Shown here: piece by piece, positions 24,088-61,651 of the stretch | Numbering within the stretch: the stretch's first letter is position 1 | How the letters are laid out: the number at the start of each line of letters is the position of its first letter | Assembly: GCA_903953935.1 (NCBI GenBank) | Contig: CAJBLF010000046.1 | Coordinates: forward strand, 1 to 61,651 | Direction: 5' to 3' | DNA length: 61,651 nt | DNA from: an uncultured bacterium | GTDB lineage: Bacteria; Patescibacteriota; Gracilibacteria; Absconditabacterales; Absconditicoccaceae | Notes under the pieces: generated by a model | What the model was told of the DNA's origin: nothing | Databases searched by the model: none | The model's input: only the letters and a program-made list of their open reading frames with translations | Made by a program: the position numbers and the translations under genes

Positions 24088-27000
24088 TTATTTTGCTTTA
24101 ATGTCTAACAATAATGTCGTGATGGTAGCGTTTGATTGATCTTTTACGATATATTTTGGTTTTTTACTGATTGCATCGAAAAGATATTCTCCCATTAATG
24201 AGCTTGCATACATTCCAGGAATATATATTGCTCATGCCGTATTTGTATACAGGACACAATCATTGTTTGCGTTTTTGATGCAATATCCACCACTAAAATC
24301 ACCAAAATTTCCTTCTGTCAGTTGTATCTGTTGGTATTCCTGATTATTTTCTCCCATTTGTATAGTAAGACTTTGTATTGGTAATATTATCTGAAAGACT
24401 TTCATGTTTTTTGTTATATCTATCAGTTCGATTACTGGAATATGTGTACTAAAGCTTACATGTATACCTATTGTATTGATATATCATTGGCTTATCTTTA
24501 TTTCACCAGTTTTTGGATCAATAGTAGCGATTTCATTGCCTTGTGTATCATAGAGTCCAATATCATTTCCCATCGTGAATATTCATCCTGTGATTATAGT
24601 CTGTTTTGGTGTGAGATCAAATCAGCTATACATATTTTGATTGGTTCCTTCAATGTTCTTTCGTATTCCATTTCTCATTCTTTGGAATATTACTGTTCAT
24701 TCGTCTAAATCGTGACTAATTTTTGCAATAATATCTGCTGTTTTTTCTCCGCTTTGTTTCACATCAATCACCTCAATATCTGGTATTTGTATGTTTACGG
24801 TAATCACCTCTTTGGTGATATTGTTGTTTTGATCTATTGCTATGAACTCATAACGTTCTTGTGTTCCTCATGTAAAGAATAGTCATCATATATCAATTGT
24901 ACCTGTCTGTGAGGTGTTGTCTTTTTCAGCAATGATTTGGCCATCTTTCAAAACAACCATCTTGGCAACAACAACATTGTCTGTCCATACTGATTTGAGT
25001 GTGTAACTTGTGTTGATAAATCATTCATGCATGAGTCCCGTACTTATTGCTTCATTCGTGCTATTTCTCCAAAGTACTACATCACCTATAGGTGCTGTGC
25101 TATCTCAAAGATTTTGCATACCCGCTACGGTTTGATTGGATCGAGGAGATGTTTTTGTATATAGTGCCAGTGTTTTCTGTTGGTTGATAGTAAGCTCTTC
25201 GGAAGTATTGGTAAGCGTTGCTATGCTTGCATATAATCGTTTTCTTGGAAGATTTTTGAATGTTACATTTATTTGTGATTGTTCTGGATTATAATATTCA
25301 ATCTCTAATATGCTATTGTCTAATTGGCTGATGATACGCTTTTTTACCATATTTTCGTCTACTGTAATCATGGCTCATGTGTAATCGGTGTCTTGAGGAA
25401 GTACTATGATATATTTTGGTTTTTCTCATCCTCAAAAAATATTTCGAAAACTACTTGGCGTATCTTTGTCGTCTATCTTGTTACTCACTTTAATAATATA
25501 TCCATCTGCAGATTCACCTAAATTCTTACTGTTTGTCCATGAAAGTTGAAGTGTGTCAAATGTTTGTCCATCAGTTTTAAAGTTTTTTGGTTCCTTATTT
25601 TTGTCTACAACCTTGATTGTTATATCATTGATGGTCATGTATCCATAAGCATCTGAATCTTCTCTTACCTGATCTAACGATGTGATATATCGTTGTTTGG
25701 GATTTATCCGTGTCGATGGATGTTCCATTTCATAACTATAAAATTTGTTATAATGGGTCACCATTGAATTACTTCCTTCTGAAAGATATTCTGTCTGTTG
25801 TTTTGCATATTTTATATAGATAGCATTTGAATCGTACATCAAGATGTCAGAAAGTTTATCATTGTTGAGATCTGTACGAGTAGTATAGGTTTCTTGTACT
25901 TTTTGTATTTGTTCGCTAGAGCTTATGGTGTTTATCATGTTTTTTGAATTTCCGCTATATGATTCTACAAAGACTCCTTGTACATACGATGAAATGTCTG
26001 TACTGTAATTTGTTTCTGTACTTGAACAATTGGTACATGTTCATTGTGTTTGAGCGATTAGTGGTTGGTCTGTATATGCGAGTAACGCAGTATCTATTTT
26101 GCTTTTGGTTTTTTCTAGATAACTCTTAGATTGTTTGTATGTTGTTTCAGACATATTGAGTTTTTCGGGACCGTCATTGTTTACTGCATCTAGATATCAT
26201 TGCACCATTCTTTTGTTGAGATCCAAATATGTTTTTGTTGGGTCTTCTTGTGATTGTAATATGTTTTTAGTAGGTGCATCAATTGTCATTAGCGGTGTTT
26301 TGAGACTTACTGATGTTGTTGTATCATTTACCAGTACTATCGTATTATTTTGTAGGTTTTTGATAAATGTATCATAATCTTGAATCTGTTTTCCCATCTC
26401 CTTATTTTCTTTGATTTTCTTCTCGATAATGCTTTGTGCTGCTTTTTCTACTGCCTGTATTTGATCAGTAGCAGGAAGAATGATGGATTTGTTTTCTACC
26501 GTTGCTAAAATAGTCTTCACCCTATCATTCATCTTTTTGTCTGTCATTGAACTGTTTTTAAATTGCATGAGTCATTGTCTTAACTCGTTATATGCATCAT
26601 CGTACGCCATCATACCTGTCTCGTTTTCAACTTTGTGATATCCATTGAAGTTGATGTTAATGTTTTGGTCGAGTTCTTCTATTTTGTTTAATCAGCTCAT
26701 TATTGCATTGTTGTTTGCATTTTCTGTAATTCGATTTATTCCTGATTGTATAGGTGTTTCTATTTGTTTTGAAACAAAATCATTTGCAAGTCCTGCTATG
26801 CTATTGAAGACATCATATACCCCATCAAAATTGAATTTGAGTGTTGTATATGCATCAATTTTATAATCAAATCATTGAAGTGGAGGATCTTTGAATTTGG
26901 TGGTCAGATTGAAATAATCAAAGATAGGAACATTCCATGTCCTTTGTGTTATCTGTTCTATTTTTCCTTTGACGCCTTTTTCTCCTACTAGTCAAATACC

Positions 27001-30000
27001 TCATTTGACGATACAAAATATCTTTCCGATAAAATCGGCTACCTTGAGTATCGCACTTATTTCTGGCATTATTTTAGGAATCTTTGGTGCTGGTGGCAAT
27101 ACTGGTAGATCCATTTTGATGCTCGGAATGAAAGATGGTGGTTCCGGCAAAGTCGGTGGTTCAGGAATTACAGGAATAGTAGGTAAGGACATGTTTTTGT
27201 TGAAGAAACTCAAATCCATGTTTATATCCAATTCTACTTCTGGCGGTTCGGGGAGGTTTGGTAGTTGTGGTAATGGTATTTTTGTTGGTATAAAATTTAT
27301 TTTTGGTAGTACAATATTCATACCTAATTCTATATGAGAGATATCCATATAAATATTAGGAATTTTGAATGCTGGTATTGGGAATATCGGCAATTTTGGA
27401 CAAAGGAATGAAAGACTACATGAAAATGATCCATAATTATCATTACTACATTTACTACATCTTTCTGATCGATTTACTGAAAAATCTATGATAGCTTGTC
27501 GTGTTTTTATAGCTCCTACTATGAGAACTATTGCATCTACATATTGCGAGAATCTTGTAGCATTTACATTTAAGAAGTTGTTTATTCCTCCTACAAAATT
27601 TGAGAGCAATGCAGAAAGCTCTGTCAGATATCTGTCGGTAAGATGTGTCCGTTGGTACAACTGTCCCGGAAATTGTTTGTATTTTTCAAGTATCTTAATG
27701 TTCTGTTTTACTGAACCTATGAGGCCCGCAGTATTTTCTCTAAAGGTCAAAAAATTATTTAATGAGCCCGCAGCACCTGAACATTTTTCCATCTGATCCA
27801 CAATTCCATTGATCGTATCAAGTCTTGTTTGATCTGTAGCCGAAAATGATTTTCCTTGTGCTATTTTTTTACTTGATAGATATGTCTGTATTGTTTTCCA
27901 GCGTGGTAATTTAGCTATCTTTTTAGCAGTATTTGCAGAATTGATACCGATATTTTTTATATCCGCACCCATTTCTTGTCGTGTAGTATCTCCTGATAGA
28001 GCAAGTATACTATTCATGTTTGCTATCTCACTATCTATTCGTTTTGTTAAGCTTTCTTTTTCTGATGTCGATAATCATGTTTCCGTACCATTCAATGCTA
28101 TTTTTTCTGCTTCTAGTTTCTCCTTGATATCGGCTGCTTCATCTTTGTCTGTAGTCCCACACATTGCAAGTATTTCATTGATGACACTTGTCCGATCTTC
28201 TAATATCTTTCCATTTTTTTCTATCCATAAGGTCAGATAACTTGTATATTTGTTGATATCGTCACTAGTAAGTGATGGAATTTTTATGTTAAGATCTTTT
28301 GTGTCTATATTTACGAGTGGCACTTCTTTAAACATCTCCTGAACTGCTTCAAATGGATTGTTTCCTATCTTGTTTGATAGGCTACTTATGTTTTTTTTGG
28401 AAAGTTTTTCTGTTCGTTTAATGTCTTTTCATGTGTTGCTTTGGATATATCATGCTTGTTTATCAGCTGCATTTATTGCTTTATATGTTTCTTCAAGATT
28501 GCCTATCTTGTCGAATCATTGGAATACACTTGTTACATCTGGAAGGTCTATTTGGATTGTCATCTTGGTCAAATTGTTTTGAATATATGATATCTGTCTT
28601 GTCATCCAATCTTGTACTATACATTTTACCAATCCTTTTGTTTTGGCTCCAACCTTTTTGAGGGTAACGCTGTCTCATTTTTTGAGGGTATATCCGTCGT
28701 AATTGTTTTCTGCAGTATCTGTTGTTGATTCTATTATTGGCTCCTGATCTATTGAAATGAGTCATCCAAAATTTCCTTGTGGTATAGCTGCAGAGTAAGG
28801 AGGATTGTTTGCTGAAGATCCTGCTGCGACTATTTGAAATGGTGAATTTGCTGTACTTACTATTGTGTTTGTCTGTGTAGTATCATCAAAAGCAATGGTG
28901 TTGCTTATTTTTGGTGGGTTGTTGCACGTACCTTGACCGCCTGCTGCGACTATACTCGGTTGTATGACTTCTGTACTTGGTTGATTGCCTCCTGCATTGC
29001 TATCTTTCGGGCAGTTCGTTATCGGTGGTACGGCAAAGACTACACAATTACCTCCCAAATCCCTAAATGGTTTTGGTAATATGACTGATGTGGCGTAGGT
29101 CCCAAAACACATTGCTATTCCTACTCCTAGCGTAAGTGTTGGTGCAACATATAATCTAAATACTGATGGATATATTCCCATTTGTGGTCCTCATAAAAAG
29201 AAATTATCTGATGATGATTTTGCTGGAAACCCAAAAAATCCAGGTGCTGGAATGTAGGTGACTGGTGATGGTGGAGGAATTGGTCATCGGTTACCTGGAA
29301 TATTTAATAATGGCATACCCTTTCCTATTGTTGTATTGAGTGTCCTAAATATTGAATATAATGGATTTGGTAGTTTAGGTACACAACCAAAGACATGATA
29401 ATCTCCTGGTGCTAAGAATGCCTGATTGAATGGTACTGGAATTCACTGACATCATCATTTACCTAGTTTAAATCCTTGACAGAGTCATTGGAGTGCAGCG
29501 TCAAGTTTTTTAGATACTTTTGCTGTTGCTCCATCTATAAATGTACTTACATTTTGTGATCATCCACCTTGCGAAAACAATGATGAAAGAATGTTTTGTG
29601 CGCTTCGTGCTTCTAGATTATCCATACCTGGTATGTTGGAAACGCTATCTAGATTATCCGTATTTGCTAATTGATCTACTATTCCGTTTATTGCTGTTTG
29701 TTGTGCTGCTTCTGCTCAGCTATTATAATCATTTATCTCTGTTTGTATATCCTCATATATTTGTTCGTATGTTTTTTTAATTCCTGTCTTTTCATTGAAA
29801 AGTAACCATCTATTTTTTTGACAAGCATCGGTTGTGTTGATTATGATATCAGGATATCCATCTTTCTTCTTGTTTTCTTTGAGTATATCTGTGTCTTGAA
29901 CATCGATTGTTGTGGCTGACTGTTCTTGATATATTGCTACATAAGAAAAACTCAATATTTCTCCCGAAGCAAGTTGTATGTTGTCTATGACGAATTGATT

Positions 30001-33000
30001 TTCTGTAGGCATTCCCCAATTGATGATCAATCATCAAGTATTGTTTGTGGTGAATGTCATAGATGTCTGTCTATTTCCTATATTTCGTGGTCATAGAAGC
30101 TGATCTATATAAGTTAATTTATTGTTATTTTTTTTCGACAGGATAGTCGTTTTTATTACAACCTCATCATCTTGTCTCAATACTCATGAATTGATATCTA
30201 CATATTCTTTGTATACGCTTACCACGTCATTTGTTTCGTTGATAGGAAGATAAGTTATTTCTTCAGCTGGAAGTGATTCATATACTGGTGCAGTGGAGAG
30301 TGGATTGTCCGTATATGCTAATTGTGTTTTTCCTGCTGCTACGTAGGTATCTGTATTTGCTACCATAGTTTTGATATCATTCATTGTCTGTTTTTTAAGT
30401 GCTTTTTTTTGTGATTCAGACATCCCTGCTGTTGTGTCTGGTGCTTCGACATCTGTTTCTTCTGTTACTCCTTCCATTGGTATTTCTGCTCCCTTTCGAT
30501 GTATTAGGCTATCATCTTGAATTTTTCGCTCGCTGTTTATTCTGATACCGAAACGTTTTATAGTCTGATATGTATCTTTTTGTCTGATATATCGGTTTTT
30601 ATCGCAGATTCCTGTGACTAATGATAAATAATTCGGTCCATCATTTGTGCTTCATCCATAAAATATTTTAATATCGTTGAATGCGTCGTTGGTTACGATA
30701 TCCAATTTGCTGTCTTTATCCATATCCTCCACAAACATTTGTTTGATGCTTCACAAATCTTCAGGATTCGGATTGATATCATTTGGTTCTGTATTGATAT
30801 TTAGACAAACGTTTTTTCCATCTACTGGGAATATGCCCTGATCATTCAGGTACACAATACCTTTGTCGTTGTTTGTTATTACGAAAATATCTTGATATCC
30901 ATTTCCGTCTACATCACCTATTTTTATCTCTTTAATCGGTTCCGCGATTATCATCAATTCTTGCATGTTTCTATATGGCTCTGTTCCTCAATAATTTTTT
31001 AATAGTTTGACCATACCGTCTGTATAGACTACTATCATATCTTTGACTCCGTCTTTATTGAAGTCGATAGGAAGTGCTTTGAATATCGTTTTGTTTGGAT
31101 CTGCGTAAATGGTCTGTCATATAGATGCGTCAAAATCTGTATTTGGTATACTTGAATTTTTCTCTCTTCTTTCGAGTAATGGATCTCAAAAATTTATAAG
31201 AAATTGTGATCCGTACGGTAGAGTAGATTCTCCTACTGATTTTCCATTTGCAAAATTTGCAATATTCTTGAAGTTGCTTGTAAATCAGATACCTAATAAA
31301 GCATCTGAGCTATCTTCTATTGATGTATATCATTGTTTGCTGAATGCACTCGAGTTTATATAGATACCTATTCCTTGGCTGTTGGTTGATCATTCGCTAA
31401 ATATAGCAATCTTTCCATAGGTAATAGGGTCTTGTATATCTATATTTGCGTCCTCTGTAATGATACCGTCATTGTTTCGTATCATGAGTTTTCCTATTAT
31501 TTTTCCGTTGAGTGTTATTGTGTATGTACTCATATCTGCCAGCATATCATTATCAGCATCGATAGTGAGTCTTGTGTCTATATTTCAATTGTCGATATTG
31601 AAAACATCTATCCCATTGATTGTTATTTTTGTCTTGGTCGATTCATTACCTGTGACCACACTATCTGTTGGTTCTGGGATATATATTACTGTATTTGTGT
31701 TTTTTTTGAATGTAGCTATATCACCTGTGTTTTTTATTGTCTGTATTTTGAAATCGGATATGGCGCCTAGACGTATCTTGGCTATTTCTGGCATAAGCAC
31801 AACAAATTCTTTGTTTTCTATGATTAATGTAGATGCTTTGTTATCTATGCTTTGAATTTCTCCATGTTGATCTATGATATATGCTATTTGTTTAATCTTG
31901 CTAGGATCTACTATTTGTGTTGTGGTTGCTAGAAGTTTCTCGGATTTTTGTGTCAAATTGTTTATTACCTTATTGTTTTCAGAAAAATATCATCGTTGAT
32001 TTCCTCGGTCAGTTCAGAAGAGGTTGAGATACATGATATTGAGTTTATCTTTTGGGATGATACTATCTTGGATTATGAATCTTTCATATCATGGCATTTG
32101 ATCAGTTAGTGCTCTATCTTTTATATAAGCAAAAACATATCCTTCACCACCTTTGCCAGTAGCAGCTATTGTATAAGCATATTCTTTTCCTGTGTAGATA
32201 AATTCATCGATATTGCTTTTGGCTGAACCGATTACTCATATCTTGATTGTTGTTCCACTAGTTACTTTATTGTTCCAACTATCTACCACATGAACTGTTC
32301 ATTTGCTTCCTGTGATTTCCGTAAAGTCCATTTTCGTGTTTTCAAGTTTCATTAGTACTGACTTAGCTTTTCATGGATTCACAAGCACTGGAATAACGAT
32401 AGGGTCGATCCCTGGTATGTTTATTGTTATTGTGTCATTTCCTGCTTTGAAGCTTGGATAGAGTGTGATGCTTAATTTTCAACTGGTAATCACAAAATCA
32501 TTTGCTTGACTAAAGCTTATCTGTTTTTGTGTGGTATTTATCATTTTCTCTTTTATAATTCATGGGATGAGCAATCCTTGTTTGCTTGTTATGTTGGCTG
32601 CCGTCTCCAATGCTTTCCCATTTTTATCTTTTACCGTGATTACCAAACTAGGTATATTTTCTGGTTTGATTTGCAGAAGATTTCCACTGTCTGTGTACTG
32701 GATATCAGACTCTTCCTTTGGTAGATTATATGTTATTTTTGGTGATATTTTTTGGATTATATTGTTCTGATATACCACAATATTGTTTTGTAATACGGTA
32801 ATTATGCCCTTGGCTACGGTTATAGCTTTTTGTGCTACTGTAGCGTCACCTGTAACCTCTCCTCATAATCTTTTTTGCGATAAGTCTGGCTTTACTGTTA
32901 TAGATATATTTCTATTGTCTTTGCTGCCACTTGGTCCTTGATATATAAATGATGAAGTAGAAAAGTTGTCGAATCCAATACTTGAATTTCGACTAGCCCC

Positions 33001-36000
33001 ATCAAAAATTCTTCCATCTCCACTGTTTACACTAATAGTATATGCTTGTACGTTTTGTCCTATCTTGTTTTCATGTGCATCTACTGCGCTTACTATCACT
33101 GGTATCTCTGCTCATTCCATTACTATATCTGGAGATTGTATATTTATTTTTGCAATAGGTCCAGGCATAATGTTTATGATTTGTTTTTTGATGATACATT
33201 TGTTTCCTATAGCTGGACACAGCTCTATCTTGATTGCTGTGCTTCCGGATTTTTTTTCTTTTCCTATAATCATATCAAAGACTATATTTTCAGTGTATGG
33301 ATTATAATATTCTTGTGCTTTTTTAGTGCAAATATTGTTGCTAAGTTGTACTCCGTTTTTTCCTATCTCTAGACAATTGTCTCCTGTTCATGATATTTTT
33401 ACATTGATTTTCCCCATGTCTTGAGCCATAAGAATCTTTATATGCATGGCTCCTGTTTCATTAACACTTACTATCGTCTTATCGATATTAACTAATCCAT
33501 AGGTACTATATCATTGCAAAATCTCTTGTACATTGGTTTCTGCTAATTTGATGGTTTCTTCATTGTTTTCTGCACTTCGTTGTGCTCCATACTCTGTTCG
33601 TTGTCCCGTTACAACCGCAACGGTGTTCATTAACTCTTTTGTTGTTCATAAGAATACTGGTCCAAGTGAATTTTTGAAACTCACCTGTATATCAAACGGT
33701 TTTTTTAGTATTTTTTTTGCTCGACATACCATCGCCTTTCCCCATGGTGAAGAGAATGGGCTCAGTTTAACTAATAATGCCGCACCATCGGTATCTACTC
33801 ATTCACAACTATCTACTTCTTCTTGAAGATCAGCAGATGCTCATTCCTCATAAGCGTTTCTTGGTGTTGTTTTTGTTTTTTTTGCTTGGGCACTCTGAAT
33901 TTGTTGAATGAATGCTGGTGTGGTTTTTGCAGAAACATAATCCTCTCCGTCTGAATTTATATATCCAACTTCATATCATGTAGTATTGTATACTGGTGTA
34001 ATGAATTTTCCTTGATCATTTCATTGTTTTAGATAGGCGTTGGTAATCTGACTTATTTTTTGATTGATGTCGAAGCTGTTTTTTATCTCTACTATATCTT
34101 CTGTTACGGTGCTTTGTTGTAATCTTTCTGGTCGAGTGATGTTTTGATAATAAAAAAGCTTAGCTATCATATCCAATTTTTCATCTATGGTATTTGCCTG
34201 ACTATCTCCGTAGATGGCTTTTTTTCCATATTCTGGAGCGTTTTTTATTGTGTCTAAAAATGAGATGATTTGATTGATGAAATAGTCTGTAGGTAGAAGT
34301 GTGTAATTGTGTGTGTTTGGATTTGCTAATGGATCAAGTTGTCCTAAGAAACTGAATTGAGCGCTGAATGATTGGTAGTATTGATTCTTTTTGTTTAGCT
34401 GTGTTTGGAGTAATGTATTATATTCTACAGCCTTATTTGTCAGATATGTTTTTATTGCTTCTCTAATTTCTCATGTTCCTTTAAGTATAAGTTTATTGTC
34501 TGCCTTTTTATATATTTGTACTTCATAAAGATTTGGATAGTTTAATCTTACTGCATCTCCCCCAATTCCTTGAAAGGTGATGTTTCTTATGTTGTCGATT
34601 GGTCTGTCTTGTGTGGTCAGATTCATTCCTTTGTTGGTTTCTTTTTTTTCTGGATCGGTAGAAATATCAAATGTATTCATCAGTGTTTTAATTTGTGTTA
34701 TTTCTCCAAATACTTCAGGAGAAGAGAATAGCTGGTTGATTTCAACGAATGGTTGTACTTGTCCACCATCACCCTGATAGAGATGTATCTTATCTATCTT
34801 ATCGTTGATATCACTTAGATTGCTCTGTAATGTAGCTGCTATAGTGTCCAATACGTCACATACTGCTTTGTAATGATTGATGTCACATCAACATGGTACC
34901 GGGGTTGGTGCGCCACACATAACTACTGCGTTAATAGCTATTTTCTTTGCTTGTATCGCCACTATATTGTTGTTGAGTTGCCCGATAGTATTATATATTC
35001 CTCGTGCTTGTGTAAATGTATTTTTGAAAGCATTTATATTGGTTGTTATATAATCCAGATTTGTTTTTATTTGATTTTTCCATGTCTCCAATATTTCTAC
35101 CTTTTGATTTTTAAATCTCTCTGATTGGATGATGCTGGTGAAATATGTTGATGTCGTGGTGATATTGAGATTGTTCATATAATCTAATAAAGTGTCCAGA
35201 CCGTTATTGATTTTGTCGACCCTTCCTGATATTTCTATTATCTTGCTTTGATTAAGATTTTTATTGCTCCAATCTAATGCTTTGCCTGTTATCTGTGCGG
35301 TAGTCATATTGAGTAAACTTGCTGGTGCGAATGCTATAATTTCCTGCATCCCATTGTTTCCAGATGCGACTAGTTTTTTTAATTCTGTAAGATTTGAATT
35401 TACTCCTGTTATGTCTGTTATATCTGTACCACTGAATTCAGTCTGTTTATTTATGATGTCGGTTTTGGTCCGTGATAAATCCCTCATTACATTGGTATAA
35501 AACGTTTCTAGATCTGAGGAACCCTTAAATTTATATTTGTCTACACTGGAAATTTGGTCTCGAGTTGGTGAGGTGTTTTTGACTCTCGAATCAATGGTCT
35601 TGTAGGTATAGATGTTTCCATTTCATCAACAAACTCCAGGATTCATAGTGTAAAGAATAGCTTTGCCTGCAGATATTTTGTGAGACGACATTAATGGATA
35701 GATTGTGAAAAAATTGTTTTGTGCATATGTTTTTGGGGGATTATATGCTCGTACTGGATGTTCAAGATCGCTATTGCTTACGATTTGATTCGTAAATTTT
35801 AGATCGATTCCATTTGCGTTAGGATTGTCGATATAACTTGTTACATTGCTGTATCTATTTTCCTGTTTTTCTTTTGCTGCGAATCTTTCTTGTATGATGC
35901 TTGCATATTTTATTGCTCAAATATATGAATTGGCAGCAGCTTCTCCTGTATCTATTTTTTTTGATCATACTATATCGTAAATAGGAAATCTGGCGTCTTT

Positions 36001-37749
36001 ATAATTGTAATTTGATAGTTTCTGAGTTGTAGAATCCATGTTCATTACTGAAGCTCCTCCTCGATATCTTTGTGAAAAATCTTTCATTGTTTCACACCCT
36101 CCCTGTTTTTCTGTATCATTGATATAACACTTATTTTCATCATCCGAATCGTTTGCTTTCCATGTTTTTTTTCGTCGGATACAATATCCGAAAAGATGCA
36201 GGTTACATTCTTTGTTCCATAGACTTTGTTTGTTGGTCTTTAATATGTCGTATGTTTTTACTTCTTCTTGCGTGCTATTGAAATTATATCACCTGTTTGC
36301 CTCTATCTGTGTCGAAAAAATCTTGTATGATCATCCTATGGATTGTCCTGTGGTAGTGATGTTTTGTCCTGAGAGTGATGTCAGATTTTGGAATGTTCAT
36401 CTGTATATATTGGTATCTTGGGCTGTATTTACTTGTTCTGCATTTTTTCCGAAATAATAATTTTCATAATAATTGTATTTTGTTCGGATGCATTTTGGTA
36501 GAGGAATTGCAATTTTTTTTGTTCCTTGAAAGTCCAATTCACTTACTGGTATTGGTATATTCATATAATATTTTTCTTGTTCTATTTTATCATTCAATTT
36601 GCCCTCTAGATAATCGTTTATTTGGATAATGAGTGGTTGTATATTATTGTCTGCATCTCCCACTATTCGGTTGTCTTTTTGAACTATCTTGTCGGTGACT
36701 GAACTATAATCGGTGAACGTTTCTCCTTCGGTAGTTTTATATCGTCTTGCAAGTCAGCCTATATTGTCTTTTACTTTTGCCAAAAATTGTGAACTGATGA
36801 GCCCATCATATCACTTCATCATCTCCTGGGTTGCTGTCTTGAGGGTAAGTGTAGGTAAACTGGAGGTTATCTGTTGGGAGAGTGTTCCTGCTTCTGTATT
36901 TCTGGAATCTATATCTGTAGCATATGCTTTGAGTTCTGGATCTGTTACGTTTTGTAAATCATCTTTGAGATTGCTGCTAAGATCAATTGAACTCTGGTTA
37001 TGTTCGTCTTTGAGTATATTGAGAAGAAGATTATTGAATCTATGGTATCCTATATCTTCTGCAAAGATCATGCTATTTATATAATATTTAGTATTTTCTG
37101 GAATGAAATATTTTTTTAGTCCGATAAAATCTTCATATCGAATTGCTTTGTCAATGAAACCTGTCGGATTGTTATAATATGATTTTACTTTTTTGAAAAA
37201 ATCATTGTATTGTGGTGCTGTATCAAATTTTATAATTCCGTGCCATATTTCTGCTTGACCATTGGGATTATTGTTCTCTATGAAAAATTTCTTATTAGTG
37301 TCATAAATGAATTGTTGGTGTTCGAAATCTACGTATGGATAGATGCTCGGATAAATAAATCCGTTGTTTTGCACTACTGGCAAGGGAACATCTCCTATGA
37401 GTATTGTACCCACTAACTTTGAACTTTCATCTTTGAGACCTTCAAAATACATGTTTTCTAACATCTGTGATATCTCGTGTGCTTTGAGTGTTTGTCTATC
37501 TATCGGGAATACCACCGCCTTACTGTTGGCGATTTTTTTTTGAATATAAGATATGGTATATCGAACAAGATTTGCTTTTATGTCCTCATAGATATTTTTA
37601 TCTACAAAAACCGCTACCAAATTTGTGGTGCTAGGATTTTCAGCTCCGTATACCTTTTTTCGATCAATAAAAACGCTGTTCTGCAAAAAGTATGATATCC
37701 CGTACAGGATAATGAATATTCGTACCATGAGTTTCTTTGATCAATTCAT
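24088..37749 (-). CDS. Giant exported surface protein (about 4,553 aa)
   Basis: One uninterrupted UGA-Gly frame of 13.66 kb; I walked the gaps between the standard-code fragments and found no TAA or TAG. The N-terminus has a short basic stretch and a signal-like segment (residues 9-28; alternative start at codon 8). Residues about 30-300 resemble a C25/gingipain-like peptidase fold (TILIGDVPLPVV, then AEIWHGIIKFDT), but catalytic residues are not identified. Long coiled-coil-rich parts follow. At about 1,520-1,780 come Ig-like/invasin-like strands (PDIVMEGAEIPVIVSAVDA). At about 2,220-2,370 come three FG-GAP/VCBS-type repeats (FNKDGVKDMIVV, DVDGNGYQDIFVI, DMDKDSKLDIV), with another near 3,945 (DLNNDKLSDILMY). 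A Pro-rich stalk lies at about 3,440-3,580 and a fibronectin-like stretch near 4,050. No C-terminal membrane anchor or LPxTG is seen. Probably an adhesin or contact protein; that role is inference. Confidence 0.88.
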
Positions 37750-38534: not shown

Positions 38535-39554
38535 TTATTTTGTATATTCTTTCTTTGTCTCTTCATATATGTCTTGTGATATGCTTTTTACTATATTTTC
38601 TAAAATTTCTAATGTGTTCCCTCTGGTCATAACACACAAGAGATATGGGTGATTTGGATAATATATGATTCAACAATCATGAAGTTGTTTTTGTTCTATT
38701 CCATTTTGTCATATTATACCCCTTTCTCCAAATTTATGTGCTACGACAATATTCTTTTCTGTCCCTGCAACTAATCATTGTTTGAAATCTACTTGTGTTA
38801 ATAATCATAGTGCGTAATTTGAAAGTTCTTTATTGACATAAGATCCATTAAATAACACCCTAAAAAACTTTGCATAATCTATTACCTTGAGATTATTGTC
38901 AAATTTTCCATCAATAAGATCTGGAAAAAGCATATTGTTGTCGGTAAAGGCTTTTTTATAATCTTCTACGCTGATATTTCTTTCTAGAAGAAGCGATGCT
39001 TTGTTGTCAGAATACCTTATCATATATTCTAGTAACTCTCTTATGCTATATGCTTCATTATCTACTAATTTTTTTGTCGGAACAATATTTTGTATGTATT
39101 TAGACTCGATAGGATCTTCTCTATACATGATTTTTTCGTTTCGTATGTCTGGATTTTGTTCTATTTTTTTGAGATACACCAAGAGAAGTGGTAATTTCAT
39201 TAGGCTTGCTGGAGAAAACATTTCTTTTTCGTTTATACCAAACCAGTTTCCATTATTAAGATTTCTGTAATATACTGATATGTGAGTAACTTCATTGTTA
39301 TATTTTTTTTCTTCAATAAATTCTTGTAATGGCTTTTCAAGATTTATTTCTGAATTATTCATAATGTTTTGTCCATATTCGTAATTTAGTGCTGGATTGG
39401 TTAATTCTCATTCTTTTATGATATTTTCATATTGTTTTATGTTACTGTCTAAATCTGATGATGGAATTAGGAATCCTATCACAAATCCCGCTAAGACTCA
39501 TATCACTATTCCTATCATTCGTTTTCAATTCTGAGGTGTTTTCTTTTCTTCCAT
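38535..39554 (-). CDS. Class A beta-lactamase-fold serine hydrolase
   Basis: A 339-aa protein with an N-terminal membrane anchor (RMIGIVIGVLAGFVIGFLIP at residues 13-32). Penicillin-recognising enzyme motifs are present: S-x-x-K as SPASLMKLP near residue 112, SDN as RYSDNKAS near residue 175, and a K-x-G-type box as HKFGERG near residue 280, where the usual Thr/Ser is Phe. It could be a membrane-bound D,D-peptidase-like or beta-lactamase-like enzyme. The altered third box and the cell-wall context make peptidoglycan processing at least as likely as drug resistance. It is 25 nt upstream of nothing coding on this strand; the HD gene precedes it by 25 nt, which suggests one transcript. Confidence 0.8.
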
Positions 39555-49418: not shown

Positions 49419-50003
49419 TTAGAATCCTTTGGCTATATATTGTACTAATCTGATAATAACATAGGAAGAGACAACTATAAGCAATCCTACGAGTGATCAT
49501 ACAATACCTTTTTTTGCATTAGCAGGATCTTTTCCTGAACTCGCTGCAAAGATAAACATGAGTCCTGATGCAATAAGTGCAACGGTAACTAATGTTCCGA
49601 TAAACATGGTTGCTGAAAGTACTACATCTTGTACAAACTGTCCTACTGACGTTTGATCTCATGTGTTTCTTGTGCTTTGTCTGATGCCTAGAGTATCATA
49701 AATATTGAGTTTGCATTGTCCGTTAACGAGTGAATTTTCATCGCACGTGATTCCCATTACTGAGGTGGGGCTTCAGGTGTTTATGCTATTCATTGTTGCT
49801 TCATATCATGGACATCCAGGTGATCATGGACATTCTCCTCATCCAGCAGGTGGATTTCCTGGAGGAGTAGGGTTTGTTGGATTTTCTCATGGACATCCTT
49901 CTGCTGTAGGATTTGCTAGGCACGGATCAAAAGGTCAACCAGCAAAACTAAAGTTTATTCCTATACATAATACAATAAAAAAACTTAATATTGTTTTTTT
50001 CAT
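49419..50003 (-). CDS. VirB2-like pilin with Cys/Pro/Gly-rich head
   Basis: A 194-aa protein. A signal peptide (KKTILSFFIVLCIGINFSF, cleaved after FAG or nearby) is followed by a 45-residue segment of Pro, Gly, Asn and Cys (NPTAEGCPGENPTNPTPPG, GECPGSPGCPG), with glycines mostly UGA. The C-terminal half has two membrane helices (VLSATMFIGTLVTVALIAS and GSLVGLLIVVSSYVIIRLV) around a basic turn (GKDPANAKKG), as in VirB2/TrbC pilins. The topology matches the pilin at 22.7 kb, but the head is different. Confidence 0.75.
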
Positions 50004-50410: not shown

Positions 50411-50719
50411 CTATTCTTCTTTTTGATATTCTTTGAGATACATAGTTTCAAATTCGTCATATACGTTGGCCATAAATTGTTCGTAATTGGGTATTGTTTT
50501 ATCGAGATATTCGTAAATCTCTTTTTCGGGAGATCTTTTTTCTACAAGTTCCATAAATATTTCTGCTTGTTCATCAGTGAATTTGTTTGCTATATTCGTC
50601 ATCACTCGATCAAATATCATTGGTTCGATTTCTTCTATCATAAGATCAATTGCGTCGTCATCCAAATCAGGATTGGCTTTGATGATAAGTTGTTCTATAA
50701 ATGCTTCATTATCAAACAT
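50411..50719 (-). CDS. DUF5663-like acidic protein
   Basis: A 102-aa acidic helical protein (FIEQLIIKANPDLDDDAIDLM, then MIFDRVMTNIANKFTDEQAEIF) that resembles DUF5663, a small CPR family of unknown role. I place the start at MFDNEAF because the 15 codons before it are AT-rich leader sequence with a T-rich 5' side. No UGA codon. Confidence 0.6.
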   Translation of the reverse strand: MFDNEAFIEQLIIKANPDLDDDAIDLMIEEIEPMIFDRVMTNIANKFTDEQAEIFMELVEKRSPEKEIYEYLDKTIPNYEQFMANVYDEFETMYLKEYQKEE

Positions 50720-50841
50720 TATTTTTTTTAATAGTGTAAAATATATTACGTGTTTAGAGTACATATTGTTTTATAAAAAACAACATAAAGTATTTGTCTT
50801 TTCCTCTATATTTTTACATAAAAATAGTTTTTAATTTTCCC

Positions 50842-51487: not shown

Positions 51488-53050
51488 TTATTCTGTACAG
51501 ATATATACTTTGCTTCCTATTTCTATCTGATCGTAAATGATACCAAATCCTGGGATGTTGGGACATCCGTGAGTAATACTATTATCATCTATTGTGCTTG
51601 ATTGTATTGCTTCTTCATATTTTTCTGGATTACTTGGTGGTTCGTAAATAGCATGAAGTGCTAATCATCGTTGTTTGTATTTAAATCTTTCTTCTTCATT
51701 TCCTTCATTGTCTATAGGTACTATGTTTATCCCTCTTTTTGGTCCATCTACTTTGTATCAACTTTGCAATCATTCTATGACTTGTTTGACTTTGAATAAT
51801 CCCGTTGGTGTATTTCTGTTCGTCTCTCATCTCACGTAAATTTTTTTGCCATTTCCTATTTTATAGTGATCATATGGCATAAAAGCACTCCTTTTTCCTA
51901 AGTCTGCGCCTATAAGGATTGGTTGAGTATCTATTAGCATATGATTTTTATCGAAAAAATATTCTTTACATGTTTTTTTGGAAAGTATGAGATAGGAGAG
52001 ATTTTCATGTGAAATTTGTCCGTTGAGAAATTCTTTATATATTTCTTTGACGTCATCTGGAATATTGGTTGAATGTATAACGTCTTCTCATGATAGTCCG
52101 AAGAGAGGATTCTGTATCCTTTTTAGGGTGTTTTGATCTATGATTCCTGTCGCTTGATTGGATGTGTATTCAGATGTCTTTTTCATTCCATACATTTCTT
52201 GAAGTCAGATGATATTTCCTATTTTGATGAAATTTATTGCTTTTTTTTGTATTTCATGTTTTCTTATATTGTTTATTGCATTAGTAATTTCTTCATATGT
52301 TACGCCTTGTATTTTGTTTTCTGGTATATTTTGTTGAAATTCTTCTCTATCTATTGTTTCCTGTTCTGTTATTTGTTCATCGTCAGCTTTCTTTTTGTCT
52401 ATACCTTGTTCTGTATCATATATTCTTTTGTTTTTCGTGTCTTTCTGTGCTCGTGCTCGTATTGCTCGTATTAAGCTTGCTGTAATTGTTATGATACCTA
52501 AACCTAAACATATCTTCTTTACTATTTTTGTTACTACTGGATTCTTGTTTATTTGTATCATCTCCTTTATATCTTTCAAAGATTTTCCTTTGAATGCTTT
52601 TTTTATTTCTGTTTTTTCTTCTGGGGTGATATCTATTTTTTTATGTTCTATTGCTTTCTTAATTTCTGTTTTCTTCTGTTTAATCAAAACATCTCTTCAT
52701 CTTTTTCCTGTAAGAAGTTTGTATGCTTCTCTCACTTTTTCTGGTATTCTAGTTCTTTGTTTCCCTATATAATGATCTAATATCGCTCCTATATTTTTCA
52801 TAAGATCCGACTCATCTTTTTTGATGAGATTACTTATTTGTTTTGGTAAAGGATTTTCCTTGTCTTTTATTTTTTTCCGTACATTATTTTTAAGTTCGTT
52901 TACTCTGATGCTAAATCCATTATCATCATTGTATATTATTATATCCAATCTTTTTCCTTGTGATCTATAGGGAATCTTTACTACTCCTGGTCTGAGTAAT
53001 TCTGTATCTGATATTTTTGCTGTTTTTTCTTTGTTTTGATTGATGTTCAT
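51488..53050 (-). CDS. Membrane-anchored L,D-transpeptidase (YkuD fold) with shared N-terminal domain
   Basis: A 520-aa protein. Residues about 18-117 are the N-terminal domain shared with the next two upstream genes (RPGVVKIPYRSQGKRLDIII through IPEKVREAYKLL). A charged helical region follows, then a membrane helix near residues 173-190 (ICLGLGIITITASLIRAI), and the C-terminal YkuD domain: GLALHAIYE and the catalytic box SITHGCPNIPGFG near residues 495-507, with Cys as nucleophile. Such enzymes cross-link peptidoglycan or attach proteins to it. The ATG overlaps the stop of the VanY-type gene (TAATG). Last gene of the envelope operon. Confidence 0.85.
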
Positions 53051-54072
53051 TATTCTTTGTTTTTTGATAAAACGTGTTTTTTGTCGTAATATTCAGCCAA
53101 ACTCAAATTGTTCTCTGCTAGTCGTGTTGCTAATTCTTTTCCTAGATATCTTCGATGCCATCATTCTTTATTTATTTTGTCTATTTCTATTCCTTTTTGA
53201 TATGTATTATGAAATCCATATTTATGTGCGTGTTTTCTTAATCGATCTTTATATACATTATCTTTTTCGAGATTTATCTTTCTTCCAGATATTCTTTTTA
53301 TTCTTATATCTACCGTTAGTCATAGTTCATGTTCGCTAGAATATTTCTTTGCTACTGTTCCTTTATCTTTAAATGTTTCATATAATGTTTCTTGTCTTTT
53401 TTTGTCTCTATAGGCACTATATATTTCTATCTGATCTCATTCGAATCTTTTCATAAATGCTTTAGCTAATTCCCCAATAGCGGTATTTGCTTCTTTTCTC
53501 AATTTAAATATACGATCATTTTCTTTGTGAAGATATTCTGAGGATATTTCTTCTAAGTCTGTTGGTGTATATGTTTCTTCTATAGGAGTGTATTCACTTA
53601 TGTATTTCTGTATGGAATCATCTGATACAAGATCGACCTCTGGTTCTTTTTTCTGTAAAGATTGTCGTATATTTTTTTTTGTTCTCTCTTTTTCTTTATT
53701 TATTTCTTCTTGGTATAATAATGTGTATGCTTGTTTAGCCTTTTCTGGTATGAGAATTCTTGGTGTCCCCACATAATAGTCTAGTATACTACTTATTGTA
53801 TCCATAAAGTTCTTTTCGTTTTTTATATCTTTTATTGCGATTCATCATTCATTTTTGTTTTTGAGTGTTTTCCATACCCCTTTTTTAAGCTCTTTAACTT
53901 CACACACATATCATGTTTTTTCTTGATATATTATTATTTCAAATTGCTCATTATTGATAGAATACGGAATCTTTACTACTCCTGGTTTGACTAATTCTAC
54001 CTGTTTCACCTCGTTTTCTCTTTTTTCCATTTCTTTTGCAATCATCATTTTATCGGTAATTAAAACCTCCAT
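53050..54072 (-). CDS. VanY-type D-alanyl-D-alanine carboxypeptidase with shared N-terminal domain
   Basis: A 340-aa protein. Residues about 27-125 are the shared domain (KPGVVKIPYSINNEQFEII through IPEKAKQAYTLL). The peptidase M15B domain lies at about 195-325: IEIYSAYRDKKRQ, the zinc motif SSEHELGLTVDI, and NKEGWHRRYLG with the catalytic Glu/His region. It trims stem peptides of the cell wall. No signal peptide or membrane segment is visible, so how it reaches the wall is unclear; the shared domain may help. The start overlaps the upstream gene by 23 nt. UGA encodes Gly in KTGY, HELGL and EGWH. Confidence 0.87.
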
Positions 54073-56041
54073 TATTTATCTTTTCTTCTGATTTTTTTTG
54101 AAGAATTTTTGTTACGTTATTGTCTACTATGATTTTATTGTTTGGTTTTGCATATATTCTATTATCTTGTCCTACCTCTACATCACCATGATTGATCTGG
54201 TACATTTTGGGTGGTATTCCCAATCATCGAGCTAAAGATCTAGAGAAGAGATTATCTATGATTTCTCGTATTTTTTGTGATTTCTCTATTGTAGATGGTT
54301 CTTTACCATTTTTTTCTTTATATTTTTTGATAAATTCTCTATAAATTGCTGATTTTCATTGCATATCTAAAAATTTTGCTCTATAAAATCCACCTATCTC
54401 TTTTTCAAGGTTATCTTTGGTAAGTTCCAATCTTCCTAATCTTTGATCCTTTCCTTTGTTTTGTATTGCTCGTTTTTCTCGATTTATGTTTTTTGTCTTA
54501 TCTTGATCAGAGAATCATTGATTGCTATATCTATCAAAATATGTTCTTCATTGTAGCATTCCATAAATAGCTCTATCTGCACTATTGTCTATTGCATTCT
54601 TTTTTAATATATGTTTTTTTTGATATCACTTTTCTCTTATTTTACTAATCATCCTTCTTACCATATCTGTATCTTCAGAGACTTTTACGTTTCTATGCCC
54701 ATTTATTTCTGCGTAAAGATGCGCTTTGAATGTTCCGTTTCCTACTGTGCTGTTTGCTTTTCCTTTTGCCCAGAATCTGTTGTATGCACTTTCCAGTGTT
54801 GCATCTATTTGAAGTAATGGAAATGCTTGTGCCAATTCGGGATCCATTCTACTTTCTGTCGTGAGTCTTGCTAGTTTAGTATTTTTGTCGAATTCTTCTG
54901 TAATCATTTTGAGAAATTCTGGATTTTTTTTTGTAGAATCTGCTCATCACATCCTCATGATTAGCTGATCAATTTTTTTCTGATCCATATCTGGATATTC
55001 CTTTAATCTTTGGATGTTTCTGTATAAAATCATATCACCCAATAATTTATATATTTCTCCCATATTCACTTTCTCTCATTTTGCAAAATCAAACGTATGA
55101 TTAAATACAGTGATATTGTATTCAGGATGCTGTTGGACGAATCTTTCTATCTTTTCTTTTGTCTCTTTATCAAAAGGAGTCTCTTTGTTTGGTCTATTTA
55201 TAAGAATTACCATTTCATACTCATTTTTGTTTAATCCTGCCTGTTGTGTGGTATATGATAGTAGTGTTTGTTCTATATCTTCATATTTATTTACAGGAAA
55301 AGATACCACAATTTTGGTTTCTTTTTTCATTGGTTTTTGTTTTTTGTATTCTGCTTCTATTTCTTCTTTATATCACTTTTCTTCTCTGAATCTTCCCTCT
55401 AAATATTCTTTTTGATATTGGATGTTTGGTGTTATTTTTTTTACTATATCTATTTTTTTACTGATTGATCACTTCAACATTTCATATGCTTTTTTCACTT
55501 CTTCTGGTATCTTCTTTCTATCTGCTCCTGCATGATAATCTAAGATTTTCCCCATATTTATTAGCAATTCTTGTATATTGTCTTTGATGACCGATTCTTT
55601 CTTGTAGGGGAGTGTTTGCTCTTTGTCTCTTATTTTTTTTCGTTCATTGCCTATCTTTTCATTGATTCTTATTCTGTATCCATCTTCTTCATGATATATC
55701 ACGATCTGAAAGATTCTTTTGTTGGTTGTATAGTCTATTTTACATACTCCTGTTCTTAATATGTTCACTCTTTTTGTTGTCTGTAATTCTTTTTCCATTT
55801 TTTTTTCTTCGGGTTTGGCAGCCATTCACCTTATATAAAGCCCCATACCGCTAAGATTAACTTTTTCTTCTGTATTTGTCGTAGAGAGATAACGTTCGTT
55901 TACTTTTTTTGATAGTGCTTGTTTTTCTTCTGTTGAGAGATCGGATAAAATATCGACCATCTCTTTTCTTTCTTGTGAGGTGGGCAATTTCTTTTTTGAT
56001 AGATTTATTACCTTATCGAATGAGTCGTTAATCTTTTGCAT
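54050..56041 (-). CDS. GT-A-like protein with shared N-terminal domain
   Basis: A 663-aa protein. The frame passes a TGA at residue 72, so the start is MQKINDSF. Residues 1-70 are helical; about 92-190 is the shared domain (RTGVCKIDYTTNKRIFQIV through IPEEVKKAYEML). Residues about 238-420 look like a GT-A nucleotide-sugar fold (KIVVSFPVNKYEDIEQTLLS, EMVILINRP, and an acidic RMGGADS resembling a D-x-D site). The remainder is helical and charged. A glycosyltransferase role is inferred from this pattern and the envelope neighbours. No membrane segment is seen. Confidence 0.7.
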
Positions 56042-56060: not shown

Positions 56061-59000
56061 TTATTCCTGTTCATATCTGAACGATCATAAATCTGGTCTT
56101 CTTCTTGTATTATCATTTTGGTTATTATTTCCTCATTGTTTTCATTGTGTTTGATCATTTTCTCTACTTGCGAATGTATTGTCAAATCATAATCCTACTG
56201 CATATCCCTTTGAGCCATCAGTAACGACTTTTTTCGTTGCCTCCACTCCTAGATCAACAAATCTATCTGCCTGTGTAAGGACTGTGGCTCCAGGTGTTGT
56301 GTATGCGGTTGCTATATTCAAATTTAATCCACCAGCGGTTACTGCAGGGTTTGTACTAGTTGCTAATGAATCAGCTAGCTCTTTGATACCTGTATACATT
56401 CTCATACTTGCTAAATTCGCATTTGTGTGTCCTGCATTTGCTGCCGCCATTGCGGCTGGATTATTTGCATTTAATCGTGTTGCGAGTTGTACTTTGTATG
56501 TTAGAGGTAGTCTAGGATCTCCTGCTATAGTGCCCCTTACTGAATTCCATCGTGCAATAAGGTCTGTTCCTGTAAGTTTACCTGCTATAACTTGTGTTTT
56601 ATCTGTTGATCACGTTAGTGTTAGATTTAATGTTCCTCAGTTTTGTACCTGTGTTGTGTTATTTAAAAATGCATCTAATGGGTTCATGTTTTGTCCTGTA
56701 GCATATCCGCTTTCTTGATATTTTCCTAAATCATACTGCGCACGGCTACTCATTGTTCCGGTGTTATCTATCTTTGATGTTGCTTCTTTTGCCGTAAGTA
56801 AACCTGCAGCATACGACATACCAAATGCAATTGCTCATGCTTTTGTTGCTCCTATAAGTGCTTGTCTGTGTTGTCTTGACTTGAATCTTCCTCTTGCTTC
56901 AGTGTATCCTTGGGTGTCGTATGTATTTCCCGTTCCTTTATCTAAAAGATTGATCATTGCATCATAGTTTGGTTCGCTTCTCATGGCTACAAGATCTACT
57001 CCCAACCTTGCTGTTCCTGCAAGTACTGCTCTCTGGAGTTCCTGATATTCTTTTTCTGCAAGTATTTTTTTGTCTGATCATAAGAAATTTTGCCCCTTTT
57101 CTTTGTGATAATCCAAACGAGCTAATCATTCAGATACATATCCTCTGAGATTTCTTTTTTCTATGTCTGTAAGTGTTTCTTTTTTCTCTAACATTCCTCT
57201 GATATCCTGAGTTAGATCAGGTGTCATATCTAATTGATCTTGTGTTGTCTTGATATAATAATTCCATTGTCTTCTATCTTTGAAATTTTTACCTCGAAAA
57301 CGTCATTGATATCGTTTCATTCCTGTAACTGCATTTGCAACCCTTTCACGTTCTTTACGGTTGTTTAATACATTCACTGCCTGTTCTCTTTGATATAATC
57401 TGTGTTCTTTGTTGTAATGTGAGTATTTTGCGAATAATGTTTTGGTAAATGCTACTCATCCTACTATTCCTGCTGATGCTAACAATGGTAATCCTGCTGC
57501 ACTTGCTGCAATACCTGGAGCTACCATAATTCCTAATTTGGTCGCTCATCGCATCCATCAGAACATCTTTCTGAATCCAGGATGTTTTTTGAATCGTTTT
57601 ACGTTTTTTACTGGGTCATCAAGTCGTCTTCCTATTTTTGCCCCGGTATTTAGTTTTTCTTCTACACTATATGCCTCTTCTCATTTGTTGAGTATCTGTA
57701 TCTTGAGCTTTATTGTCTGTCTTGCAATCTGTAATAATGCACGATCGTTTTTTTGTTTGTTTCTTATTTCTTTTAGTGCGTCTTTATCATCAATACTTAT
57801 GCCCATTTGCTTAAGAAAATCAGGCATTTTGTTGTATTTTTTGATATAGTCTGCAATGAAAGGTCTGCATTGTGTATCTAATACCGCATCAGTTGCTGGT
57901 GGTACTTGAGCCTCACCCTTATCTATGATGTCAGCGATATTCCATACTAATTTTTGATGTCCCTTAAATGATACCATTTTCATAAATATATTTGTGCTGA
58001 TTTGTTCCATATCATTACTCTTGAGTAACTTATTGAGTGGTTTCCAATTGCCCATTGTTGATGTTCCTGGTCTTGTCGTATCGAAAGCTGTTCCTGATTG
58101 TCTAAGAATATAATCGAATTGTGTTTGGAATTGTCCTTCTGTCATTCCATCAATCCGATCTGGAGCTGTTCCGATAAATGTATTTGCCAAGGTTATGATT
58201 CTTTTGTATGTGTCTGGATAATCTTTTTCTATTCCCATCATAGTTCCTACTAGGTTTTCTATCTTATCATTAAATCCTGCAGCTTGTTCCATCTCATGTC
58301 TGTCTGCTGCTCTTTTGTTTTCATCGCTTCGATTAAGTTTTTTGGTTTTTTCTCGATCAGTATATTTGAGTTCGTCTTCTACATATCCATCTTTGATAGA
58401 TTTTCTTCTCAAGAAAAGGTTCAATTTGTCGAATGTATTTCGTCATCCTGTCTTATTCCATCTTTCTCTTAATTTATCTCCTGCTTTTCTTTCTGCAATC
58501 ACACGATTTACTTCTATGGTATTTGAAATAGTAGCTAATTCTTCGGTTTGTTTGTATCATTCGATAGGTTCTTCACCAGAAATAGGTTCTTCACCAGAGA
58601 TTGGCTTTTCACCAGAAATAGGTTCTTCACCAGAGATTGGCTTTTCACCAGAAATAAGTTCTTCATCAGAAATAGGCTTTTCACCAGAGATAGATTCTTC
58701 ATCAGAAATGGTTTTTTTCTTTTTTGTTTTTTTCTTTTTATCTTCATCACAACATTCATCCAATTTCTTTTGAAGTAATATAAGTCTGTCTTCCAACATC
58801 TTTATCTGGGCCTTTAAGAGTTCTACTAGTTGTTTAAACATCTCTTCATTGCGTTCTCCAATAAGGTTTATCTTTAGGTTTATCTCTTCTATGGATTTGT
58901 GTATGTTTTCTATATCTTTCTTGGTGTCTCCTATTTCACTTGTGATTTCTGTTTTTGCTTGTTCAATCTTTTCTCCTACAGCTTTTTCTAGTCACTCAAT

Positions 59001-60194
59001 TTTCTCTACGTATTCTTTTTCCATTGCATCTATTTTTTCGCTTATATCTTCCTTTGTCTTTACTATTTCTTCAATCTGCTTTTTGTACATTTCTTCTGCT
59101 TCTTGTTTTTGTTTTTCAAGTGAACTATTGAGTACTCATTCAAAATCTGATAATTTCTCGGTAAATTTTGCTTCTATATCTGTCATAATTTTGTTGTATT
59201 GATCATCGATGAGTTGTTTGATAGCATCAAATTGTGCTGTTGTTCCTTGGGTATTTATCTGATTATTATTTTGGTTGTTTGTCTGATTGTTGTTTTGGTT
59301 GTTTGTTTGGTTGTTTGGTTGCATATTTGATTGTGTATTTGTTTGATTAATTGGTTGATTGATTGATTGGTTGCTTGTTTGATTAGTTGGTTGCGTATTT
59401 GTTTGGATAGTGTTTGGATTAATTCCTTGGGTATTTGTTGTCATATAGATGTTTCTTGTTGCTTCTTCCAATAATGCATTGATACGTTGCTGATCAAATC
59501 CTGTATGTATGTTGATTGTGCCTGTGTTATTTTTTATTATTATGTTTTTGTTTCCTATTGTGTTAGTTTTTGTTGTATCTTGTTTTTCTCACTGGTTCTT
59601 TTCCATTTCTTGTGCCTTTTTGATTATTTCTTTGAGTTGTTTGTCTGTTCGTTTAATTATAAAATAATCTCTGCCTTGTTTGTCTTTTTTGGAAACAAGA
59701 TCTATTTTTCCTGTATATTGATCTAATTTACTTAATTCTTCATATGCAATTTTTGATTCTTCTTTTGCTTGTTTTCCTCAATCAAAAGTGTCTGACGATT
59801 TAAATTCTATCATATTTCCTCAATCTAGAATCATTCTTTCTACCAATAATGTATCTAGTTTTTCTAATTTTGTGTTTTTTATATCACTTGGTGGTTCGGT
59901 AATTGTTTTTTGATATTCGTTGAGAATATCTTTATATTTTTTTTCATTGATCCTGATTGTTATGTTATCTCTTATGTTTATCTCTCCAGCAGGAATTCCC
60001 GAATTAACCTTATTGTTTCCATTTTCAAATCTGTTTTTTGCTATAGCATCCGCCATTTGGTTTCTGTTTACCAATTTTGAATCTATCTGCAAAGTTTCCA
60101 AAAGCTCTTCCTTTGCCTTTTTAATGTACTTTGCATCTAGTTTTTCTGCAAGAACATCTTGCTTGGAGATGATATTCAAATCTTTAGTTACCAT
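56061..60194 (-). CDS. Large coiled-coil, low-complexity protein of the envelope cluster
   Basis: A 1,377-aa protein in one continuous UGA-Gly frame; I recognise no family. Parts in order: a charged helical region (1-250); an Asn/Gln/Thr-rich, prion-like stretch (about 255-323, QPNNQTNNQNNNQ); a long coiled coil (about 330-490, EEMYKKQIEEIVKTKED); Lys-rich KKKKTKKKK; eight hexapeptide repeats of the ISGEEP type (about 496-544). A large helical region follows, with a hydrophobic Ala/Gly-rich segment near 880-915 (GIAASAAGLPLLASAGIVGG) and another near 1,120 (GATKAGAIAFGMSYAAGLL). The tail is Gly/Asn/Ala-rich. No signal peptide. It could be a scaffold of the cell envelope. It ends 20 nt before the GT-A-like gene. 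Confidence 0.78.
58563..58710. repeat. 18-bp in-frame tandem repeat (hexapeptide ISGEEP)
   Basis: About eight 18-bp units encode ISGEEP, ISGEKP or ISDEE(S/L). Alternating units give a 36-bp super-repeat of very high identity, so length variation in frame is expected. Confidence 0.88.
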
Positions 60195-60957: not shown

Positions 60958-61651
60958 TTAAAAACGTAGCATTTTTCTGTTCATCTCTTTAACCATTCTT
61001 CCCATAATTACTGGATTCATAAATGCTTCTTTTGTTTCTTTTTCGTTACATCAACGTCTTCCTCATCTTGCATCTACATCATCTATCTCTGTTTTTGGAA
61101 CTATTCTGGATGATCTTCCTTGGAGGATGTTTCCAGGGTCTTCAGGAGAGATTATGTGAAGTTTTCCGTCTTCATCTATGGTATATATATTTTGTGTCAA
61201 AGGATCACGCACACAATAATTACCACGATTTATTTTTGAATTTTCTCTTAGTTTTTTCACTAATTCATCGTAAAATGCAAACACGATATTTCTTTCTACA
61301 CCATCAAAAACACGCATTTTATTTTTTCTATATTCTAACATTTTTCCTATATTTTTTCCTTTGAGCTCTATATCTCACATCTTAAGCGTAATTACATTTT
61401 TTTCAAAACCAATTTCTACACTTTTTTTTCCATCTTCGCTTTTTGCTGAGGTAGTAAAATCGAATTTACGTACTGTTTTTAGATTCATTATTGTTTTAAT
61501 TGGAGATGTCCAGAATCCGTTTGCGGATACCTTTGTTTTCAATAAACGTGACGTCGTTGCGTTTCTATATTGATCGTGATATTCATTCATAGCATAATTG
61601 AAATGTCCCATCAGTTCGTCGATTGCCGTCTGTAAAGATCTATTGTCTCCA
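60958..61651 (-). CDS. Partial hypothetical protein (5' end outside window)
   Basis: The frame is open to the window edge; 230 residues are visible. The internal ATG at 61,611 is not necessarily the start, because the frame continues upstream (SLQTAIDELMGHFNYAMNE). No clear domain. A stretch (NIGKMLEYRKNKMRVFDG, then FAFYDELVKKL) loosely echoes the end of the shared N-terminal domain of the cluster, but too weakly to claim. Three UGA glycines are visible. Confidence 0.6.

Follow-up and report, generated by a model that had tools for sequence, protein, structure and literature searches.

Why should three neighbouring enzymes with unrelated catalytic parts share one and the same domain? To our knowledge, the enzymes that Patescibacteria, which live on other bacteria, use on host walls, and the route by which these enzymes leave the cell, are largely unknown. 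The question is raised by a stretch of DNA of 61,651 nucleotides, hereafter the window, which is the whole of contig C46 from a genome of 1.3 Mb in which TGA is read as glycine. Its source bacterium belongs to a group of small organisms that parasitise or prey on other bacteria. Because one genome of the same GTDB family bears an Absconditabacteria name, the family is probably one of the Absconditabacteria, among which the predator Vampirococcus has been placed (PMC8080830). We propose that the domain is probably a tag that positions or delivers wall enzymes, since its scarce relatives are found mostly on or next to wall enzymes that lack a standard export signal.

Translation with genetic code 25 (TGA as glycine) yielded the three open reading frames where the sequence-only reading had placed them, all on the minus strand. 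The L,D-transpeptidase (LDT) gene (51488..53050) lies in a frame open to 53164 and encodes a YkuD part (PF03734, E 1e-6, residues 392-555) in which the HGC motif is present. Its start is probably Met39, the ATG at 53050, because this codon overlaps the stop of the preceding frame as TAATG. That frame, the VanY-type M15 peptidase gene (53050..54072), was recognised by PF02557 (E 1.4e-16, residues 190-312). The third gene (P0003, 54050..56041) encodes a glycosyltransferase-like protein that we tentatively assign to the GT2 type on the basis of motifs and distant homologues rather than of a Pfam hit: DxD-like and ED motifs are visible, yet no Pfam GT2 match was obtained, and homologues in other families were found at E 3e-35 and 6e-18, the latter (from G235) with GT2-like NDAD and GG..GED motifs. 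A GT2 homologue of G235 (L117, 5087-7648) is fused to a serine/threonine-kinase-like C-terminus and adjoins a 1576-aa protein that also has a GT2-like part. Since a GT2-type enzyme would need cytoplasmic nucleotide sugar, the label of envelope enzyme is uncertain for this partner.

A domain of about 100 residues was located on the minus strand in the N-terminal parts of the LDT (52706..53002, profile match E 1.6e-50) and the VanY-type peptidase (53710..53997, E 5.6e-43), and at residues ~92-191 of the GT2-type protein (55472..55765, E 1.2e-48). The earlier claim that the three regions align was confirmed by pairwise BLASTP (34-41% identity; LDT/VanY E 3e-20, LDT/GT 1e-22, VanY/GT 2e-12), by alignment scores of 146-229 against a maximum of 70 among 1000 shuffles per pair, and by a profile made solely from copies at other loci, which recovered the three window copies with E values of 4.8e-14, 5.5e-11 and 6.8e-9, its best decoy scoring 0.17. 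The window copies are 34-44% identical to each other, with 23 invariant columns, as against 22-28% identity to copies elsewhere. Their placement had been described as N-terminal, which holds for the LDT and the VanY-type peptidase when the likely starts are used and fails for the GT2-type protein, in which the domain begins at about residue 92, behind another shared module.

In the LDT, a hydrophobic segment (residues 214-232; 52469..52525, minus strand; hydropathy scan 1.9) lies between the domain and the YkuD part, and both this segment and the catalytic part are kept in orthologues without the domain. Such orthologues, found in the rest of the genus, hold other sequence in the slot before the membrane segment, which in G007 is the helical module described below. 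The LDT copy precedes the membrane segment and would therefore lie on the cytoplasmic side if the topology is the usual one, a position that suits docking more than wall binding. As judged by hydropathy and inspection of N-termini, all domain-bearing proteins lack a signal peptide, and two of them contain an internal hydrophobic segment. For the window, this absence had been reported in two of the three enzymes; with respect to cleavable signal peptides it applies to all three.

When the copies or the proteins that carry them were scanned against Pfam, NCBIfam and PHROGs, nothing over the domain exceeded the curated cut-offs, and no Pfam family, LysM and other wall-binding ones included, passed its cut-off for the 13 copies scanned. 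Two AlphaFold2 models that differ in their first sequence both show three to four strands and then two helices (pLDDT 73 and about 78). According to these models, I-L-D-x-x-x-G-x-x-R would form the end of helix 1 and the next turn, and P-E-x-x-x-x-A-Y-x-L-L would form helix 2; the charged stretch in mid-domain, previously taken for a helix, is predicted as strand and loop instead. Foldseek searches of both models against solved folds, and of model 1 also against viral folds, returned no match at E <= 0.001, a result that could miss a fold because the models have pLDDT of 73 and about 78 and were made from 3-4 sequences. PUR-repeat and Hsp70 hits were weak, differed between the two models and were discarded. 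A phage origin was likewise rejected: the LDT has no match among phage records, and for no viral contig could a relative of the domain be confirmed.

Copies do exist beyond this locus. Iterated profile searches found the domain in 8 of the 353 genomes of the class, that is, in 7/49 of its own family (among them G066, 'Candidatus Absconditabacteria bacterium isolate STCSWMC_146') and in G325 from another family; these figures are minima, since identity between copies falls to ~20%. Apart from the source genome, no occurrence was detected in a 380-genome sample of the phylum. With one genome left out at a time, the profiles still recovered all genome groups (E 9e-20 to 2e-6), as against 0.17 for the best among 1590 decoys. 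One further weak match was obtained in G141 (E 6e-5), and matches in G024, G127, G136, G138, G279 and G338 (E 0.0035-0.009) proved to lie in unrelated proteins and were dropped. The source genome itself has a fourth copy, a stand-alone protein of 154 aa on contig C64. The gene immediately upstream of it encodes a Tat-like signal, a transglycosylase-like core (E 0.011, below cut-off) and an end that resembles LysM.

As for partners, the G029 protein joins the domain to a LysM-like stretch and to an end resembling a muramidase (Pfam E 0.009, below cut-off), and the next gene encodes a NodB deacetylase (E 5.7e-22). The G325 protein has two copies ahead of an NlpC/P60-like end (E 6e-4, below the Pfam cut-off). 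The LysM-like stretches of G029 and C64 score E 0.05-0.06. A 605-aa protein of G012 with a lysozyme-like end (by eye) has one weakly detected copy (E 0.014) and two more possible copies by eye, and the gene after it carries a clear one (E 5.5e-8). G021, G066 and G068 have stand-alone or two-copy proteins, and in G065 the domain sits on large proteins without assigned function. The short stand-alone forms have 153-154 aa. All fusions place it before the enzyme part, with no Gln-rich tail, and by their sequences the recognisable partners are nearly all murein enzymes. The sequence-only reading, which spoke of an undescribed domain on unrelated catalytic parts, thus stands in that respect: there is no family model, copies occur elsewhere and partners differ. 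Neither outcome that it had named as refuting, a match to a known family or a lack of copies beyond this locus, came about. Its description of a domain shared by three envelope enzymes was right in that all three carry it, and too narrow in view of the stand-alone copy and the other enzyme partners.

The three enzyme genes end a cluster in the order giant1, giant2, enzymes, all features of which lie on the minus strand. Of giant1 the window contains just the C-terminal part (60958..61651), which is truncated at the contig end and can be aligned with giant1 from nine further loci, and giant2 (P0004, 1377 aa, 56061..60194), directly followed by the enzymes, has homologues in 22/49 family genomes. 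What follows giant2 varies by genome: a GT2-type gene (window and G021; two GT2-like genes in G067), a methyltransferase-like part (by eye), an LDT, or a protease-like protein with an HELLHG motif (by eye). The LDT gene is followed by small proteins and a TrbC/VirB2-like pilin gene (49419..50003; PF04956 E 0.0015, below cut-off), an order common to the window, G001, G006 and G008. A small acidic protein (50411..50764, pI ~4.1) belongs to a family that stands close to giant2 at 12 of the 16 further giant2 loci read; its members have ~100 aa (117 aa in the window) and a pI of 4.1-4.6, a size and charge like those of secretion chaperones. A match to the coupling ATPase of type IV secretion (PF02534, over cut-off) is also present in the source genome. 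In G021, a two-copy domain protein directly follows giant1, and the genomic link between the domain and the giant-protein locus accordingly extends to two genomes, this one and the source genome. The end of giant1 (L092-L094, L096, L099, L102, L103, L105, L046 and the window) has a conserved LGKLL..R...R.FDG.ER.I that faintly resembles the second half of the domain. Kinship between the domain and the giant1 segment RSLGKLL..R.FDG.ER.., which was chosen by eye, was not retained (hhalign P 0.0015, probability 16%).

The module that precedes the domain in the GT2-type protein is a basic helical N-terminus of ~80 residues (55796..56041, minus strand), found by a profile of five other proteins at E 1.2e-5; a profile of five others finds its counterpart in G021 at 4e-5. 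Among the 49 genomes searched, it occurs as one strong copy per genome in 8, always in the gene next to giant2. In the seven genomes other than the source it starts at residue 1, on GT2-type, methyltransferase-like, LDT and protease-like enzymes encoded by the gene after giant2 (L044, L092-L095, L100, L102). One module per locus on changing enzymes would look like the pattern expected of a docking piece for the giant complex, and the helical module may be a better candidate for a docking signal than the shared domain.

For the shared domain, the account we tentatively prefer, at somewhat less than even odds, is that of an accessory docking or delivery module for murein-active cargo. Placed mostly in front of, and sometimes beside, murein-active enzymes without a signal peptide, it would recruit them to a complex of the envelope or of secretion, most probably one associated with the giant-protein/pilin locus, and they would reach the wall, their own or that of a prey, without the Sec signal route. 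Such a domain would bind a protein rather than wall glycan, with the giant complex or the coupling ATPase of type IV secretion as candidate partners, and its bearers would act outside the cell. Several observations are consistent with this. The partners differ in fold yet mostly act on one substrate, murein (YkuD, M15, muramidase-like and NlpC/P60, with NodB next door), and no bearer has a signal peptide. The domain-less LDT orthologues fill the slot before the membrane segment with other sequence, the helical module included. The window genes directly follow giant2 and the G021 two-copy protein giant1, and the source genome has the coupling ATPase match. Finally, the short stand-alone forms parallel the bare XVIPCD proteins of Xanthomonas. 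On the other hand, tandem copies (G021, G325) are common among binding modules but unusual in an export signal, the domain is rarer in the family than giant2 (7/49 versus 22/49 genomes), known XVIPCD signals are C-terminal, and the GT2-type partner should act in the cytoplasm. A bolder version, in which the domain is a translocation signal by which parasitic or predatory Absconditabacteria inject murein-attacking effectors into their hosts via a type IV-like apparatus, appears improbable to us; if true, it would reveal the first effector class for a Patescibacteria secretion system. A domain that marks murein enzymes devoid of signal peptides would offer a sequence handle for finding host-wall cargo, and a giant-protein locus with a single changing enzyme a concrete place to look.

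The tandem copies lead to a rival that we regard as possible though doubtful, a cell-wall binding module that, as a lineage-specific counterpart of LysM, holds murein enzymes on glycan or another wall polymer after export by some other route. All 15 copies are basic (pI 7.8-10.1), a LysM-like stretch stands at the place of the domain in the G021 homologues of the GT2-type protein, the G029 fusion sits beside another, and on C64 the domain follows a gene with one. The LysM reading itself is weak, with the E values given above for G029 and C64 and, in G021, a visible motif that was not significant, had no Pfam hit and was rejected. Moreover, a wall binder would be misplaced before the LDT membrane segment, and the GT2-type partner and the absent signal peptides fit it poorly. 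A further rival is a cytoplasmic domain for regulation or oligomerisation, which would hold wall enzymes inactive or in a multi-enzyme complex until they are needed and would have no role in transport: the domain always precedes the catalytic part, its LDT copy would be on the cytoplasmic side if the topology is usual, one partner is a GT2-type enzyme, and stand-alone proteins could regulate or inhibit in trans. We nevertheless consider this unlikely, since it leaves unexplained how murein hydrolases without signals reach their substrate and why almost every recognisable partner is a murein enzyme. Least probable of all, and very unlikely in our view, is that local duplication and gene fusion, carried by recombination at the locus, spread a domain of little selected function. 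The window copies are indeed closer to each other than to the rest, and LDT orthologues elsewhere in the genus do without the domain; however, other murein-enzyme fusions exist in G029 and G325, and an identity of this level with so many invariant columns points to long retention under constraint.

The docking account finds its closest analogue in XVIPCD, a C-terminal domain of ~120 residues with a Gln-rich tail that binds VirD4, tags many murein enzymes for the bacteria-killing type IV secretion of Xanthomonadales and also occurs in short bare proteins (PMC6536674). In both cases a domain of ~100-120 residues is common to unrelated, mostly murein-attacking enzymes, NlpC/P60 included, that lack signal peptides (here LDT, M15, muramidase-like and NlpC/P60-like, the last two below Pfam cut-offs), some proteins are little more than the domain, and the genome has a type IV coupling ATPase. 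The present domain differs in that it precedes the enzyme, can be tandem, is fused to a GT2-type protein, belongs to a different phylum and has no Gln-rich tail; the comparison is one of analogy, no sequence relation is claimed, and secretion here is putative. Type IV secretion clusters of Patescibacteria mostly lack a relaxase, and their co-option to other functions has been proposed (PMC12102498). Their VirB1-type murein hydrolases (PMC12102498) also carry accessory domains and occur in genomes that have parts of type IV secretion, but VirB1 has a transglycosylase or CHAP core and helps to build the channel, whereas the partners here include a transpeptidase, an M15 peptidase and a GT2-type protein. 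LysM and PG_binding modules are likewise repeatable accessories of murein enzymes, and a LysM-like stretch occupies the G021 GT2 slot; LysM, however, has ~45 residues as opposed to ~100, and the present domain has predicted strands followed by two helices and no LysM profile match. Polymorphic toxins (for example TANFOR, PMC7073777) also combine one N-terminal piece with varying enzymatic ends, a likeness clearest for the helical module after giant2, but most enzymes here look like wall enzymes.

Cognate immunity genes, which adjoin the genes of XVIPCD effectors, were also looked for: none was recognised in the window, and lipoprotein genes face both G065 bearers. These two bearers (L049, 7407-9554; L052, 1-1899) lie at contig ends and are near-identical over their first ~60 residues (97% DNA identity over 218 bp) and divergent thereafter, and the first 70 residues of the facing lipoproteins are 79% identical. 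The pair is either a recombining cassette or an assembly repeat. Elsewhere in the window we observed a class A beta-lactamase-like protein (38535-39554; PF13354, E 5e-35) and a giant protein of 4553 aa (24088-37749) with a signal-like N-terminus and stretches resembling FG-GAP/VCBS repeats.
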